Shown one piece after another: positions 3,271 through 47,041 of a stretch of 64,000 nt of DNA. Position numbers and translations under genes: made by a program. Source of the stretch: Pedobacter polysacchareus (GTDB lineage: Bacteria > Bacteroidota > Bacteroidia > Sphingobacteriales > Sphingobacteriaceae); contig NZ_JAHYSS010000006.1 in assembly GCF_019802255.1 (NCBI RefSeq), positions 186,001 to 250,000 of the forward strand, in the 5' to 3' direction. Below the pieces are notes generated by a model that saw only the letters and a list, made by a program, of their open reading frames with translations, had not been told where the DNA came from and ran no database searches. Within the stretch, counting starts at the first letter, position 1. Each line of letters opens with the position of its first letter.

Positions 3271-3308
3271 AAAGGCTGAATTTTCTAACGTTAGAAAATT
3301 CAGCCTTT
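3271..3308. terminator. Perfect 38-bp palindrome, bidirectional terminator
   Basis: AAAGGCTGAATTTTCTAAC followed by its exact reverse complement, with T-runs on both sides. It lies between the convergent cytochrome gene (+) and the SPFH gene (-) and can end both transcripts. Confidence 0.88.
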
Positions 3309-10420: not shown

Positions 10421-11167
10421 TTAAGCGTCAAATTTATCAAGTAATTTAATCAAGGTTGCAAAATCCTTAGGATATGGTGCATCAATCACGATATCAGCGC
10501 CGTCTAGTCCTTTAAACACCAAATGTCTGGCATGTAAAGCAAAACGTTTCATAATCGGAAGTTCTTCATCATCCTTTGCAATGCGGTAACCTTTTTTCAT
10601 GGTCGATAAGAATACCGGTTTTCCACGGTACATATCATCACCAGCAATTGCTGCGCGCTGTGTAGCCAGGTGGATCCTGATCTGGTGCATGCGGCCGGTA
10701 ATCGGCTTACATTCTACCAGGGTATAATGACGGTAATGTTTTATGGAATTAAAAATGGTTTCTGCACGTTTACCCTCTTTTCGGTCGATGGTAACGCTCT
10801 TATTCCCGTCGTTAAGGATGGGAAGGTCGATAAACAGCTCGTTAAAAGTAAACTGTCCGTCTACCACTGCGTGGTATACTTTGTTTACTTTACGCTTTTC
10901 AAATTGTATCGCAACGTTGCGATAGGCATCAGGAGTTTTCGCGATGATAATCGCGCCTGAAGTTTCTTTGTCTAAACGATGACATACCTGTGCATCAGCA
11001 GAATACTGCTTTGCCAAACGTAATATATTGACCTCGCCTGATCCGCCGCGCTCATCCAGCGAGGCTACAAATGGAGGTTTATTTACGACGATATAATCAT
11101 CGTTTTCGAATAGGATAAGATCTTTAAAAGAAGGATATTTCAATACAGTGAATTTAATACTGCACAA
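10421..11167 (-). CDS. RluA-family pseudouridine synthase
   Basis: 248 residues. The catalytic motif CHRLDKETSGAIIIAKT contains the Asp that attacks the uracil ring, and GRMHQIRIHLA is the second family signature. It isomerises uridine in rRNA or tRNA; the exact target cannot be told. There is no S4 domain, and the length is that of the short RluA branch. It starts 5 bp after the response-regulator gene, so it is probably co-transcribed with it. Confidence 0.9.
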   Translation of the reverse strand: MCSIKFTVLKYPSFKDLILFENDDYIVVNKPPFVASLDERGGSGEVNILRLAKQYSADAQVCHRLDKETSGAIIIAKTPDAYRNVAIQFEKRKVNKVYHAVVDGQFTFNELFIDLPILNDGNKSVTIDRKEGKRAETIFNSIKHYRHYTLVECKPITGRMHQIRIHLATQRAAIAGDDMYRGKPVFLSTMKKGYRIAKDDEELPIMKRFALHARHLVFKGLDGADIVIDAPYPKDFATLIKLLDKFDA

Positions 11168-36393: not shown

Positions 36394-36650
36394 CACCTGA
36401 AAAAGAGACCATTACAAAATCAGGTTCGATTTTAACTGTAGAGATCCGCCACAGTTTGCTGAGTAAAGAAGCAGATCATTGCCAAACATTGAGTTTTTAT
36501 GCTAACATTATACTTCTTAAAGCTAGTACTAAATCAAATTCTGAAATGGCTTTAGGTTTATTTATCATAGATCAATTCAATACTTTAAAAGCTTCCTTAA
36601 CTTTAGCCTAACATCAGCGTTGCTGGAGTAAAACCTATAAAAGTTAAGCT

Positions 36651-37739
36651 ATGATTCCTGACAAAAATGTTTTTTACAAAGTAGACATTGTCGTGATTGG
36701 GGCAGGACAAGCTGGTTTATCAGCAGCCTACAATTTACAACGTGAAGGCATAAAACCTGGAAAGGGATTTGTTGTTTTAGACGATGAATTTAGTCCGGGT
36801 GGCGCCTGGCAGCATCGTTGGGATTCTCTAACACTAAGCAACGTAAACGGCATCAATGATTTACCTGGAATGGCCTTTTCGGATGTTGTAAACACTAAGG
36901 AAACAGCGTTACAAGCGAATATTGCAATTCCCAAATATTATGAACAATATGAGAAAACCTTTGGCCTTCCAATCATTCGTCCCATAAGAGTGATTGATGT
37001 TACTGAACAAAACGGACGGTTTATTATCCGAACAACCGGAATTCAATTTAGTGCGCGCGGATTGATCAATGCTACCGGTACCTGGAAAACCCCGCACTGC
37101 CCTAAATATCCCGGCTGGGAAAAATTCAAAGGGAGGCAACTGCACACTGCTGAATACAAAAATGCTGAAGAATTTATCGGCAAGCATGTGATCGTTGTGG
37201 GTGGTGGCATTTCAGCGATTCAATTACTCGGGGAGATTTCAGCAGTAACCCAAACTACCTGGGTGGCTCGTCGATCTCCTGATTTTAGGGAATATGAATT
37301 TTCGCCAGAAATAGGCCGTGAAGCTGTAGCTTTAGTAGAGAAAAGAGTACGAGAAGGCTTGCCACCTGAATCAGTGGTTTCTGTAACAGGCTTGCCCATT
37401 ACTCCTGCTATTGAAGAAATGTTGAACAAAGGCGTTTTAGATCGAAAACCTATGTTCAAGGAAATCATGGAAACAGGCGTTCGATGGGAAGATGGAACGA
37501 CCCTAGATGCTGATGTTATTTTTTGGAATACGGGCTTCCGTCATTCATTAAATCACCTTGGCCCCTTAAAGTTAATGAATGATAAAAATGGGATTGAAAT
37601 GTCTGGAAAATTAGCCACACAGGTCGCTAAAGATCCGCGTATCCACCTCACAGGCTATGGTCCATCAGCCTCCACTATTGGTGCAAACCGAGCCGGCCGA
37701 ACCGCAGCTATAGAGCTGATCGAATTTCTTGAATTGTAA
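36651..37739 (+). CDS. FAD/NAD(P)-binding oxidoreductase (flavin monooxygenase-like)
   Basis: 362 residues with two Rossmann sites: VIGAGQAGLSAAYNL at residues 14-28 (FAD) and VVGGGISAIQLL at about 183 (NAD(P)H). A later IHLTGYGPSASTIGANRAGR contacts FAD. This set fits class B flavin monooxygenases or thioredoxin-reductase-like enzymes; the substrate is unknown. It is followed by a GntR regulator gene. A promoter for that gene lies in the 82-bp gap, so the two are probably not strictly one transcript. Confidence 0.85.
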   Translation: MIPDKNVFYKVDIVVIGAGQAGLSAAYNLQREGIKPGKGFVVLDDEFSPGGAWQHRWDSLTLSNVNGINDLPGMAFSDVVNTKETALQANIAIPKYYEQYEKTFGLPIIRPIRVIDVTEQNGRFIIRTTGIQFSARGLINATGTWKTPHCPKYPGWEKFKGRQLHTAEYKNAEEFIGKHVIVVGGGISAIQLLGEISAVTQTTWVARRSPDFREYEFSPEIGREAVALVEKRVREGLPPESVVSVTGLPITPAIEEMLNKGVLDRKPMFKEIMETGVRWEDGTTLDADVIFWNTGFRHSLNHLGPLKLMNDKNGIEMSGKLATQVAKDPRIHLTGYGPSASTIGANRAGRTAAIELIEFLEL

Positions 37740-37785
37740 AGAGAATGGTTACTACGAGAAATCGTATAATAACATTAAAAATAAC

Positions 37786-37819
37786 TATGTTTGCATATTG
37801 TATACAATATGCAAACATA
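37786..37819. promoter_or_regulatory. Perfect 34-bp palindrome overlapping the GntR promoter
   Basis: TATGTTTGCATATTGTA followed by its exact reverse complement. The core TTGTATACAA resembles the GntR/FCD consensus TNGTNNACNA, and the left arm TATGTTTG is itself an exact TAnnTTTG -7 element. It ends 2 bp before the GntR start codon, so a bound repressor would block both promoter and translation start. Confidence 0.7.
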
Positions 37820-37821
37820 AT

Positions 37822-38463
37822 ATGATATCACCAGAATCACTAAAAAGTCAAATCATAAAAGCATTGTGGCAATTGATCATTGAAGGCAAAATAATACCCA
37901 ACGAACCTTTGCGTGAAATACAATTGACAGAATTGCTAAACATTAGTCGAACGCCACTTCGAGATGCCCTTCAGCAATTAGAATGGGAAGGAATTGTAGT
38001 ATCTGAACCTCGGAAAGGATATCGATTAGCGCCATTTTCAGAAGCTGATATTCTTGAAATTTATCCATTGAGAGCAAAGTTAGAATCGTTTGCCTTAGAG
38101 TTATCTGGCCTTCCGGATAAAAGAGTTTTGGATGAACTCCATAAAATTAATTTAAAAATTCTTCAGTCAAAATCGCCCAAAGACCTGGTTGAATTAGATG
38201 AGCGTTGGCACGTATTATTAATTTCTAAATGTCCCAATCAAAGATTACTAAAATCCATAAGAACTTTGCATCGCCAATCGCAGCGTTATGAATATGCATA
38301 TATGTCCATGAACAAAATGGTTCAGAAATCCAGCAATCAACACGAGAGTATTATTCTTCATTTACAAAATGGACAGCTCCAAAAAGCAACAGAACTGCTT
38401 GCTGAAAATAATTTAGTCGGGATTGATGCGCTTATTAATTGGCTAAAATCTACCGAAAAATAG
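37822..38463 (+). CDS. GntR-family regulator, FCD type
   Basis: 213 residues from the ATG at 37822; earlier in-frame Met codons lie in or before the palindromic operator and are unlikely. Winged HTH at about 10-70 (LKSQIIKALWQLIIEGKI, then LTELLNISRTPLRDALQQLEWEGIV), then an all-helical FCD domain with ADILEIYPLRAKLES and the ligand/metal region SNQHESIILHL. It probably autoregulates through the 34-bp palindrome. The likely targets are the hydrolase gene 89 bp downstream and perhaps the oxidoreductase upstream. Confidence 0.88.
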   Translation: MISPESLKSQIIKALWQLIIEGKIIPNEPLREIQLTELLNISRTPLRDALQQLEWEGIVVSEPRKGYRLAPFSEADILEIYPLRAKLESFALELSGLPDKRVLDELHKINLKILQSKSPKDLVELDERWHVLLISKCPNQRLLKSIRTLHRQSQRYEYAYMSMNKMVQKSSNQHESIILHLQNGQLQKATELLAENNLVGIDALINWLKSTEK

Positions 38464-38551
38464 CACGATAATTTCCTATCCATGGTACATCAAACCTACT
38501 GTTCTCCACTATCTCCTAAAACCAACACGCCCTAAATAACAACAAACCAAA

Positions 38552-39637
38552 ATGAAAAAAATCTTTTTACTCTCCTTAATATTCTCTTTCGCATTTTCAA
38601 ATTTTTGTGACGCACAAAATCAAACTCAAAACGAGCAGATCGACACTGAGTTTTTTATACCTATTGAAAAATCAAACCTACATGCAAGAGTTGTTGGCAA
38701 TCCTGACAAACCTATAATTATAACACTTCATGGGGGCCCAGGTGCTTTTAATGTAGACCACGAATTTTATAGAAATGTTTTTGAAAAAGATTACCTGATG
38801 GTCTATTTTGACCAAAGAGGAAGTGGTAAATCTGAGGAATGGAAGGATAAAACAATGCTCAACACCACACAATTCGTGAAAGATTTAGACCAGGTGGTAG
38901 ACTACATTAAAAACAAATATCCAAACCGAAAAATAAATCTTTTAGGCGCTTCCTGGGGTGGAATGTATGGCTTCCTTTATTTGATAAAACATCAGGAAAA
39001 AATCAATTCATTTATTAGCAATTCAGGTTCTGCAAATATCCAACACAATAGTCTTGCTTTGATCAAACACGAACAACAATTAGCGAAAAAATTGCTCAAG
39101 AAAACCAATGATTCCAACAAAGCAAACAGATATAAAGAAATTCTGAAAAAGTTAGATACTATAGAAAGAAGTGGATTTAAAAACTTCTTTGCCGATATGA
39201 ATACCATCAGATATGAATTCCCAAAAGACTTAGGATTTGATGTTTATTGGGCTCAACCTAAAAAGAAAGAGAAAATTGATGCCTTATTAAAAGATCCAGG
39301 GTTTTATACCAGAAATAACTATACACCCGAACTTTTAGAAAAATCGATGGCAAGATTTGAGTACATTAATGAAGTATTCCACGGTCAGGAAGCCTACAAT
39401 AATCTTAATGTTTTAAATGAAATTGCTATTATTAAAACACCAATTTTAATTATTCAAGGAGAATTCGACTATGCAATTGGCGTAGAATCTGGCAAAATGA
39501 TTTATAAAGCATTGAAAAACATTCCCAAAAAAGATAAAGAACTAGTATATATTAAAAATGCTTCCCATAATGTACCACATGAGGCTCCCGAAGAATTATA
39601 TCAGTCATTAACAGCTTTTTTTAAGAAGCATAATTAA
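38552..39637 (+). CDS. Secreted alpha/beta hydrolase, proline iminopeptidase-like
   Basis: 361 residues with a signal peptide (cleavage near DAQ). The peptidase S33 features are present: HGGPG (60-64), YFDQRGSGKS, nucleophile GASWGG (Ser134), acid in IQGEFDYAIG and His in NASHNVPHE. Such enzymes release N-terminal proline or cleave related amides and esters. It follows the GntR gene, with a shared terminator at 39753. It is the third alpha/beta hydrolase in a 12-kb stretch. Confidence 0.86.
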   Translation: MKKIFLLSLIFSFAFSNFCDAQNQTQNEQIDTEFFIPIEKSNLHARVVGNPDKPIIITLHGGPGAFNVDHEFYRNVFEKDYLMVYFDQRGSGKSEEWKDKTMLNTTQFVKDLDQVVDYIKNKYPNRKINLLGASWGGMYGFLYLIKHQEKINSFISNSGSANIQHNSLALIKHEQQLAKKLLKKTNDSNKANRYKEILKKLDTIERSGFKNFFADMNTIRYEFPKDLGFDVYWAQPKKKEKIDALLKDPGFYTRNNYTPELLEKSMARFEYINEVFHGQEAYNNLNVLNEIAIIKTPILIIQGEFDYAIGVESGKMIYKALKNIPKKDKELVYIKNASHNVPHEAPEELYQSLTAFFKKHN

Positions 39638-39752
39638 ATAATATTGCTTACCATTCCCAGTCTTTCCAACTTTGCACAAAACATCAAAACTCCACCGAAT
39701 TGACTAGACACAGCAAATAGTCTGAAGATTTCTCTTTCGACTATGAAAGAAT

Positions 39753-39781
39753 GATTAACCCGATATTTTATCGGGTTAATC
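39753..39781. terminator. Bidirectional terminator
   Basis: GATTAACCCGATA, loop TTT, TATCGGGTTAATC: a perfect 13-bp stem between the convergent hydrolase (+) and candidate immunity gene (-). Confidence 0.85.
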
Positions 39782-39794
39782 ACATTTAAAATTG

Positions 39795-40274
39795 TTAGAA
39801 TTTTTCACTCAACTTATCAAATAATGATTCTTCATGTTTATAAAGATCCATATTATTTACTTCAAACTCAGTAGCTACACATTCAAAAATATTATCATGA
39901 AACGTCAGGATAAAATGCTTATAGGTCTTCCACCTCTCTGAATTATGGTAAGGATGTATCTTATCTACATTTACTAAAGATTGTATCAAATCTGAGTCCT
40001 CTAATTCATAAAAACCACCTGAGTTCATTCCATATTTATAATAAGGATGACCGGAAATAGTTTCATTCGAAGGAGGGCCAAATCTCGAAAAAGTACAACT
40101 ATTAAATTTAATAACAATCCTTCCTTCAGAAGAAGAGAAATCTGGTTTCACAAGCTGATCCTCATCAAGATCGGTGTAGAAAGAAACGTATGTATGACCC
40201 TCATTTATTATAACATGAGGATTTGGACCTCCATAATCCATTCTAAAAAGATTTGTAATTTCGTTTAATTTCAT
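39795..40274 (-). CDS. Candidate immunity protein downstream of a toxin C-terminus
   Basis: 159 residues from the ATG at 40274 (KLNEITNLF follows); a start 12 codons earlier is possible. The protein is acidic, cytosolic and beta-rich (VIINEGHTYVSFYTDLDEDQL, then DSDLIQSLVNVDKIHPYHNSER). I recognise no family. Its place 190 bp downstream of an orphan polymorphic-toxin C-terminus on the same strand is the standard toxin-immunity order, which is the only reason for the call. Confidence 0.5.
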   Translation of the reverse strand: MKLNEITNLFRMDYGGPNPHVIINEGHTYVSFYTDLDEDQLVKPDFSSSEGRIVIKFNSCTFSRFGPPSNETISGHPYYKYGMNSGGFYELEDSDLIQSLVNVDKIHPYHNSERWKTYKHFILTFHDNIFECVATEFEVNNMDLYKHEESLFDKLSEKF

Positions 40275-46387: not shown

Positions 46388-47041
46388 ATGAATAAAAAGA
46401 TAAAACTGTCCGACAAGGTCATCATAGAGATCAAGAAAGACATTGCCTCTGGCAAACTCAAAAAAGGAGAAAAGATCCCCGCAGAACCGGAATTGATGGA
46501 ACATTACGGAGTGGGGCGTTCTACCATCCGCGAAGCGATAAAAACATTATCCATTTCAGGTATCCTTAAAGTACAGCAAGGCTCAGGCACTTTTGTCGTG
46601 TCTAAAATAAAAGATGAAACCCTCTCCCAGCGCTTAAAAAGAGCGGACTTTGAAGAAATTAACAGCGTACGCGCACTATTAGAAAAGGAAATTGTAAAAC
46701 TGGCCAGTCAGCATCGAAGCGATGCAGATTTGACGATGATGGAAAACCTCCTCCAGCTACGGAAAAAGGCCATTGAAGAGCAGCAGCAAAAGAAATGTGC
46801 AGAAGCAGATATTGCTTTCCACATCAGCATTGCTAAAGCTTCCGGCAACCAGGTACTTTCTGATCTTTATGAAAATTTCACGGTGGTCATGCGTAATTTT
46901 TTTGAGCTCAGAGATGCCGCAGATATCAAACACTTTAGCAGCAGTCAGCATTCCCATGAAGCTTTATTTGAAGCCATCAAAAAACAAGATTCAAATCTGG
47001 CCGAACAACTTACTATCGACATTCTAAATCACAACTATTAA
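46388..47041 (+). CDS. GntR-family regulator, FCD type
   Basis: 217 residues. N-terminal winged HTH: LSDKVIIEIKKDIASGKLKKGEKIPAEPELMEHYGVGRSTIREAIKTL. C-terminal FCD helical domain with ADIAFHISIAKASGNQVLSDL and HSHEALFEAIK. It sits 5 bp upstream of the TauE-like gene, in one operon, and its promoter is flanked by two matching palindromes, so it likely represses its own operon. Confidence 0.92.
   Translation: MNKKIKLSDKVIIEIKKDIASGKLKKGEKIPAEPELMEHYGVGRSTIREAIKTLSISGILKVQQGSGTFVVSKIKDETLSQRLKRADFEEINSVRALLEKEIVKLASQHRSDADLTMMENLLQLRKKAIEEQQQKKCAEADIAFHISIAKASGNQVLSDLYENFTVVMRNFFELRDAADIKHFSSSQHSHEALFEAIKKQDSNLAEQLTIDILNHNY

Follow-up and report, generated by a model that had tools for sequence, protein, structure and literature searches.

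Gene context and geometry of the palindrome

The sequence analysed here (the window, a full stretch of 64 kb from a genome of 5.83 Mb) contains a gene for a GntR-type regulator, gntR, preceded by a 34-bp palindrome and followed by an alpha/beta hydrolase gene (Table 1). The gene upstream (36651-37739, plus strand) codes for an ArsO-like flavin monooxygenase, with an NCBIfam score of 292.6 bits that lies below the cut-off of 425, and it ends 82 bp before gntR. The gntR product consists of an N-terminal winged helix (PF00392; 50.9 bits for a cut-off of 27, 1.2e-13) and a C-terminal FCD domain (PF07729; 56.2 bits for a cut-off of 24.3, 6e-15), the architecture of the FCD (FadR/VanR) subfamily of the GntR family. 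Its best NCBIfam match reached 66.3 bits for a cut-off of 271.5, and therefore no named function was assigned. As read from an alignment with 3sxy, residues D126, H130 and H174 fit the metal site of FCD domains (Asp/Asn plus three His), and the last histidine appears to be replaced by asparagine (Asn196/197).

A related regulator is Atu1419 from Agrobacterium fabrum, an FCD/VanR-group GntR repressor that, according to the accessible part of its description, binds ATGTATACAT, represses its own gene and contacts DNA through Glu34, Arg45, Thr46, Arg49 and Gly66 (PMC7797058). Residues E32, R43, T44 and R47 of the window protein align with the first four of these contacts, are identical to them and are invariant in the eight orthologous proteins considered below, as are M1 and I2. 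Gly66 aligns with R64, as far as can be read from the alignment.

The palindrome is an inverted repeat of 34 bp without mismatches or spacer, as an earlier note on this DNA had claimed, and the copies of TATGTTTG that the note had placed in both arms were also found. It does not end at the start codon as had been proposed, since its last base (37819) is located 2 bp before the gntR ATG (37822-37824). With the base composition of the window, about 8e-6 perfect palindromes of at least 34 bp would be expected by chance in 64 kb, and 7.5e-4 in 5.83 Mb. Three perfect palindromes of at least 16 bp were detected in the window, this site being one of them. The second (38 bp, 3271-3308) is located between convergent open frames and is probably a bidirectional terminator, and the third measures 18 bp (10907-10924). 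The central 24 bp of the gntR palindrome are single-copy in the genome, even when up to three mismatches are allowed, and this ruled out a dispersed repeat.

Table 1. Features at the gntR locus, with positions in the window
Feature	Positions	Strand	Remarks
Perfect palindrome, 34 bp, whole feature	37786..37819	.	arms TATGTTTGCATATTGTA and TACAATATGCAAACATA
Sigma-A -7 box of the gntR promoter, TATGTTTG	37786..37793	+	8/8 sites have TAnnTTTR 17 nt to the left of the centre
Conserved operator, about 22 bp	37792..37813	.	inner TTGTATACAA (37798-37807) with half-site-like TGCATA and TATGCA flanks
Predicted transcription start (approximate)	37798..37798	+	24-nt leader; inferred from F. psychrophilum
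Mirror copy of TATGTTTG, fortuitous or genome-specific	37812..37819	-	absent there in 7/7 orthologs
gntR, 213 aa, presumed binder of the site	37822..38463	+	winged-helix GntR plus FCD (Pfam)
Alpha/beta hydrolase, presumed second operon gene	38552..39637	+	Pfam PF12146/PF00561

Conservation of the probable operator and the -7 box

Orthologous loci were sought in one genome per species (84,980 genomes) by requiring exact peptide patterns, so the scan is not exhaustive. It yielded 54 pattern matches and, from these, seven loci encoding a gntR relative with 74-83% identity, all of which were used (four in Chryseobacterium, the others in Algoriella, a Weeksellaceae bacterium and Gynurincola). Together with the window they gave eight sites, whose columns were aligned on the operator centre. 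In the seven orthologs the site precedes the same ATG, with 16-21 nt from the centre to the ATG, and the 12-mer ATTGTATACAAT was found before the gntR ATG exactly in six of the eight sites and with one mismatch in the other two. Columns G-3 and C+3 are fixed in all of them. The 11 inner pairs of the palindrome were retained in 67 of 77 cells across the orthologs, and the six outer pairs in 16 of 42, which is chance level (composition expects about 0.305; p 0.31). The poorest pairing was that of L014, with 8/11 inner and 0/6 outer pairs. The conserved columns spell an operator, about TGYATATTGTATACAATATRCA, that overlaps a plus-strand sigma-A -7 box of the form TAnnTTTR.

In the eight sites this -7 box always begins 17 nt to the left of the operator centre, while the spacing from the centre to the ATG varies. 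It matches TAnnTTTR in all of them and TAnnTTTG in seven: columns T-17, A-16, T-13, T-12 and T-11 are conserved in 8/8 sites and G-10 in 7/8, and both nn columns in 4/8. The left outer arm is therefore conserved because its fixed columns are those of the -7 box. The mirror box (CAAAnnTA) was found only in the window (1/8 sites), and the columns of the right outer arm are not conserved. These results indicated that the conserved unit is an operator of about 22 bp fused to a one-way promoter, and that the perfection of the 34 bp is local; full symmetry seems to be peculiar to the genome of the window.

The same data bear on a palindromic promoter firing in both directions, in which the two -7 boxes would give the gntR mRNA from the plus strand and a short antisense RNA from the minus strand toward the end of the oxidoreductase gene, as the earlier note had suggested. 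This reading draws on the presence of TATGTTTG on both strands and on a minus-strand match at 37851-37822 (10/12) to a model of E. coli sigma-70 type. However, such matches occurred in the region at the level of shuffled sequences (12, against 12.8 expected), the mirror box is confined to one of the eight sites, and there is no minus-strand TTG within the 28 nt upstream of it, the nearest one being 29 nt away. Furthermore, the nearest downstream minus-strand frame of at least 90 aa has its start within the oxidoreductase gene, at 37187. A minus-strand promoter is thus unsupported, the mirror box is probably not a promoter, and we consider bidirectional transcription very unlikely.

In Bacteroidota sigma-A promoters, a -33 box TTTG/TTG sits about 17-23 nt upstream of the -7 box. 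When gaps of 12-25 nt were tested, a -33 TTG was missing at seven of the eight sites, including the window, and was present only in L012. This weakens the promoter assignment and makes its strength uncertain, with no effect on the conservation of the -7 box. Compared with flavobacterial sigma-A promoters as described in the accessible parts of two studies (PMC9723704; PMC6847099), the -7 consensus TAnnTTTG is matched exactly in the window, but the -33 TTG is lacking at the usual distance and the -7 box forms the outer arm of the operator. In Flavobacterium psychrophilum the sigma-A box TAnnTTTG extends from -12 to -5, and 5'UTRs have a median length of 24 nt, according to the part of that study available (PMC9723704). 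If this geometry is applied here, the gntR transcript would begin near 37798, where TTGTATACAA has its first base, and the predicted leader of 24 nt would equal that median.

More distant homologs were retrieved from the family (6 of 301 genomes, E≤1e-8), the phylum (8 of 395, E≤1e-20) and the class (3 of 395, E≤1e-15), with the genome of the window being counted in each search. This gave 14 further gntR loci, of which L003, a remnant without the gntR start, was excluded from the count. The 12-mer core was found near the start in the 13 remaining loci, whose proteins are 24-37% identical, with no mismatch in five, one in four and two in four (L006, L021, L030 and L031, the weakest ones). The search covered 270 bp per locus (250 before the match and 20 into it), and the chance probability for each locus ranged from 0 to 0.034 (1000 order-1 randomisations each). 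In several of these loci the site takes the form TGTATATTGTATACAATATACA or one close to it, that is, the inner site plus outer half-sites. None of the 13 had TAnnTTTR in the -17 register, and the fixed register thus holds only among the close orthologs.

The inner TTGTATACAA (37798-37807), with its conserved GT/AC, conforms to the pattern NyGTM-N0-1-KACNy given for FadR-subfamily operators in the accessible part of a survey of GntR operators (PMC4494728). That survey also lists a group with 2-nt spacing (GntR, HpxS, HypR, MdcY, PrpR and UxuR) and extra half-sites 7-12 nt from the centre. The window site resembles these operators in the 2-nt spacing of GT-AT-AC and in its TGCATA/TATGCA boxes 6-11 nt from the centre, and the inner site plus outer half-sites of the distant loci fit the extra half-sites. 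On the contrary, the symmetry of the window site reaches 17 nt to each side, unlike the FadR-subfamily operators described in the available part of the survey. With the Atu1419 site, as far as the accessible text of PMC7797058 describes it, it shares a 10-bp palindrome with central GTATAC, a location within promoters and autorepression, here predicted. The two differ in the placement and number of sites. Upstream of its own gene, Atu1419 has its site between -10 and -35, and the sites that overlap a -10 box are those of atu1418 and atu1420. Atu1419 also uses paired distant sites with looping, whereas here a single, extended site lies over the -7 box of a Bacteroidota promoter. A literature search for the 10-mer core together with GntR returned no paper, and the matches listed for the 10-mer alone look unrelated by title. 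For Bacteroidota GntR operators, none of the titles listed names such an operator; the text of PMC4306948 holds GntR, operator and TAnnTTTG.

Only one other exact copy of the 12-mer was found in the genome, inside an OmpA-like coding frame. With up to one mismatch there were 39 places (37 of them with one mismatch), compared with 10 for the backwards control, coding context being assessed for the second exact copy and the other 37 places being counted. Congener G209, which has only a gntR remnant (see below), contains 41 such places (control 11). Thus, the number of places is no sign of a wider regulon.

Genes downstream of gntR and a deletion in a congener

The hydrolase gene follows gntR after a gap of 88 bp in which no TAnnTTTG/A was found, and its product begins with a signal-like segment, as read from the sequence. 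We infer that gntR and the hydrolase gene would form one operon. A homolog of this hydrolase lies after gntR in three of the seven orthologs, directly in L014 and after one gene in L009 and L010. In the other four there is none beside gntR, which means that another gene is controlled there or that the operon varies in composition. In L011, L012 and L013, a gene of a family of beta-lactamase plus TPR domain proteins begins 0-1 bp after gntR (the Pfam analysis covered L011 and L013); in L008 the gene that begins there codes for another alpha/beta hydrolase. The gene or genes after gntR thus include one for a hydrolase-type protein at every locus, although the protein is not the same throughout.

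Within the genus, a gntR match was found in only two of 145 genomes (E≤1e-12): that of the window and G209. In the latter, only about the last 42 codons of gntR are left (83% identical), and the hydrolase gene is whole (89%). A window-like promoter with TACGTTTG lies just before the remnant, followed by a broken operator. The deletion (L003, 1561-1701) ends at a CAAT common to the operator and gntR. No 12-mer with fewer than three mismatches was found in L003 901-1811, and the sole exact core elsewhere in G209 is in an apparent coding frame. The joint loss of the repressor and the operator core with retention of the -7 box would be expected if the promoter serves the hydrolase, although this is one case. 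A third congener, G1020, has a hydrolase 68% identical and no gntR relative in its genome (E≤1e-12). The 1.6 kb examined at its hydrolase locus contain neither TAnnTTTG nor a core with fewer than three mismatches, and this genome is therefore uninformative on the palindrome site. Relatives of gntR with 74-83% identity (L008-L014, compared with 37822-39637) occur in other genera and families, yet in only 2 of 145 congeners; the gntR locus looks like one acquired by horizontal transfer.

Proposed self-repression and alternative roles of the site

With high probability, the palindrome is the operator through which the FCD-type GntR repressor regulates its own gene, situated within the sigma-A promoter of that gene. 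This reading is supported by the palindrome itself, by its conservation and the register of the -7 box, by the cores at distant homologs, by the contact residues and by the joint loss in the congener. We propose that a repressor dimer would bind TTGTATACAA, probably aided by the outer TGCATA/TATGCA half-sites, and would sit over both the -7 box and the start site predicted at ~37798, keeping RNA polymerase from initiating a transcript of gntR and the hydrolase gene. Release of the operator would then depend on an effector, which may be a small acid related to the hydrolase substrate. Switches of this sort, by which bacterial regulators control themselves, are ordinary. The part of the earlier note in which the regulator blocks its own promoter agrees with these data, since an FCD-type operator overlaps the gene's own -7 box in a fixed register at eight sites, with its core kept at distant homologs. 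A block of the ribosome start by the bound protein did not hold, because a DNA-bound repressor stops RNA polymerase, not the ribosome.

Alternatively, the site could act as RNA, with a hairpin in transcripts reading through from the flavin monooxygenase gene that masks the gntR AUG, and internally started transcripts that stay unfolded. Consistent with this, read-through RNA (37780-37830) folds with -18.6 kcal/mol (z -4.7), and RNA from 37799 with -3.5 kcal/mol (z -0.2). Since the hairpin needs both arms, only read-through transcripts could fold next to the AUG. A precedent exists in Flavobacterium johnsoniae, where structure near the AUG was tied to lower initiation, according to the accessible part of PMC6847099. 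However, the comparable stretch, with -19.7 in the window (random mean -7.3, sd 3.7), has -7.9 to -13.0 in the seven orthologs, within 2 sd of random in all of them, and the hairpin is thus at most a local add-on. Besides, signals in DNA account for the columns of both the -7 box and the core, none of the seven ortholog loci has a homolog of the upstream flavin monooxygenase gene, and no Rfam match was found in 36500-39800 at E≤1. An RNA element as the role of the site is accordingly given very little probability. A combined scheme, an insulated switch of two layers in which the repressor silences the promoter and a 15-bp hairpin, which the extended symmetry in the genome of the window would give to read-through mRNA 2 nt before the AUG, limits gntR translation to internally started transcripts, is unlikely.

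Given the core, the six pairs beyond it have a chance of about 8e-4 with the local composition, and a local cause (template-switch correction or selection) may thus have acted. Template switching is a mechanism that corrects imperfect palindromes. Perfect symmetry depends on the outer 6 bp of the right arm, and these may derive from chance, from such a correction of an imperfect palindrome, or from a minor local gain in affinity.

As the genome contains four FCD genes, the site might be the operator of another transcription factor, its adjacency to gntR being incidental. Against this, the site accompanies gntR across different neighbours and in distant homologs, and the exact TTGTATACAA is absent from the other three FCD loci (about 3.4 kb each), where only L027 has a copy with one mismatch, on the 3' side of the gene; we regard this explanation as scarcely tenable. 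A terminator of the upstream oxidoreductase gene is extremely improbable: the perfect hairpin starts 46 bp past its stop and there is a terminator-like match on the minus strand, but the hairpin is not followed by a plus-strand U tract, no plus-strand terminator was matched there, no minus-strand frame of at least 90 aa ends beside it, and orthologs with other upstream genes still have the site.

The locus thus offers a clear and testable pairing of operator and promoter for an FCD regulator of the Bacteroidota, which are hardly covered by the survey of GntR operators (PMC4494728; in the part available, the Bacteroidetes row of its table reads 0, 1 and 0, in columns taken as FadR, HutC and YtrA). 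The 17-nt register in eight sites and the natural deletion in a congener lead to simple predictions on self-repression at the unusual sigma-A promoter of this phylum. The wider claim is modest.

The window contains a second FCD-type GntR gene (46388-47041, plus strand), which has its own upstream repeats, AAACATCTGATGTTTAA and GAAACATCAGACGTTTAA, instead of TTGTATACAA. The frame after it codes for what we take to be a TauE-like permease.
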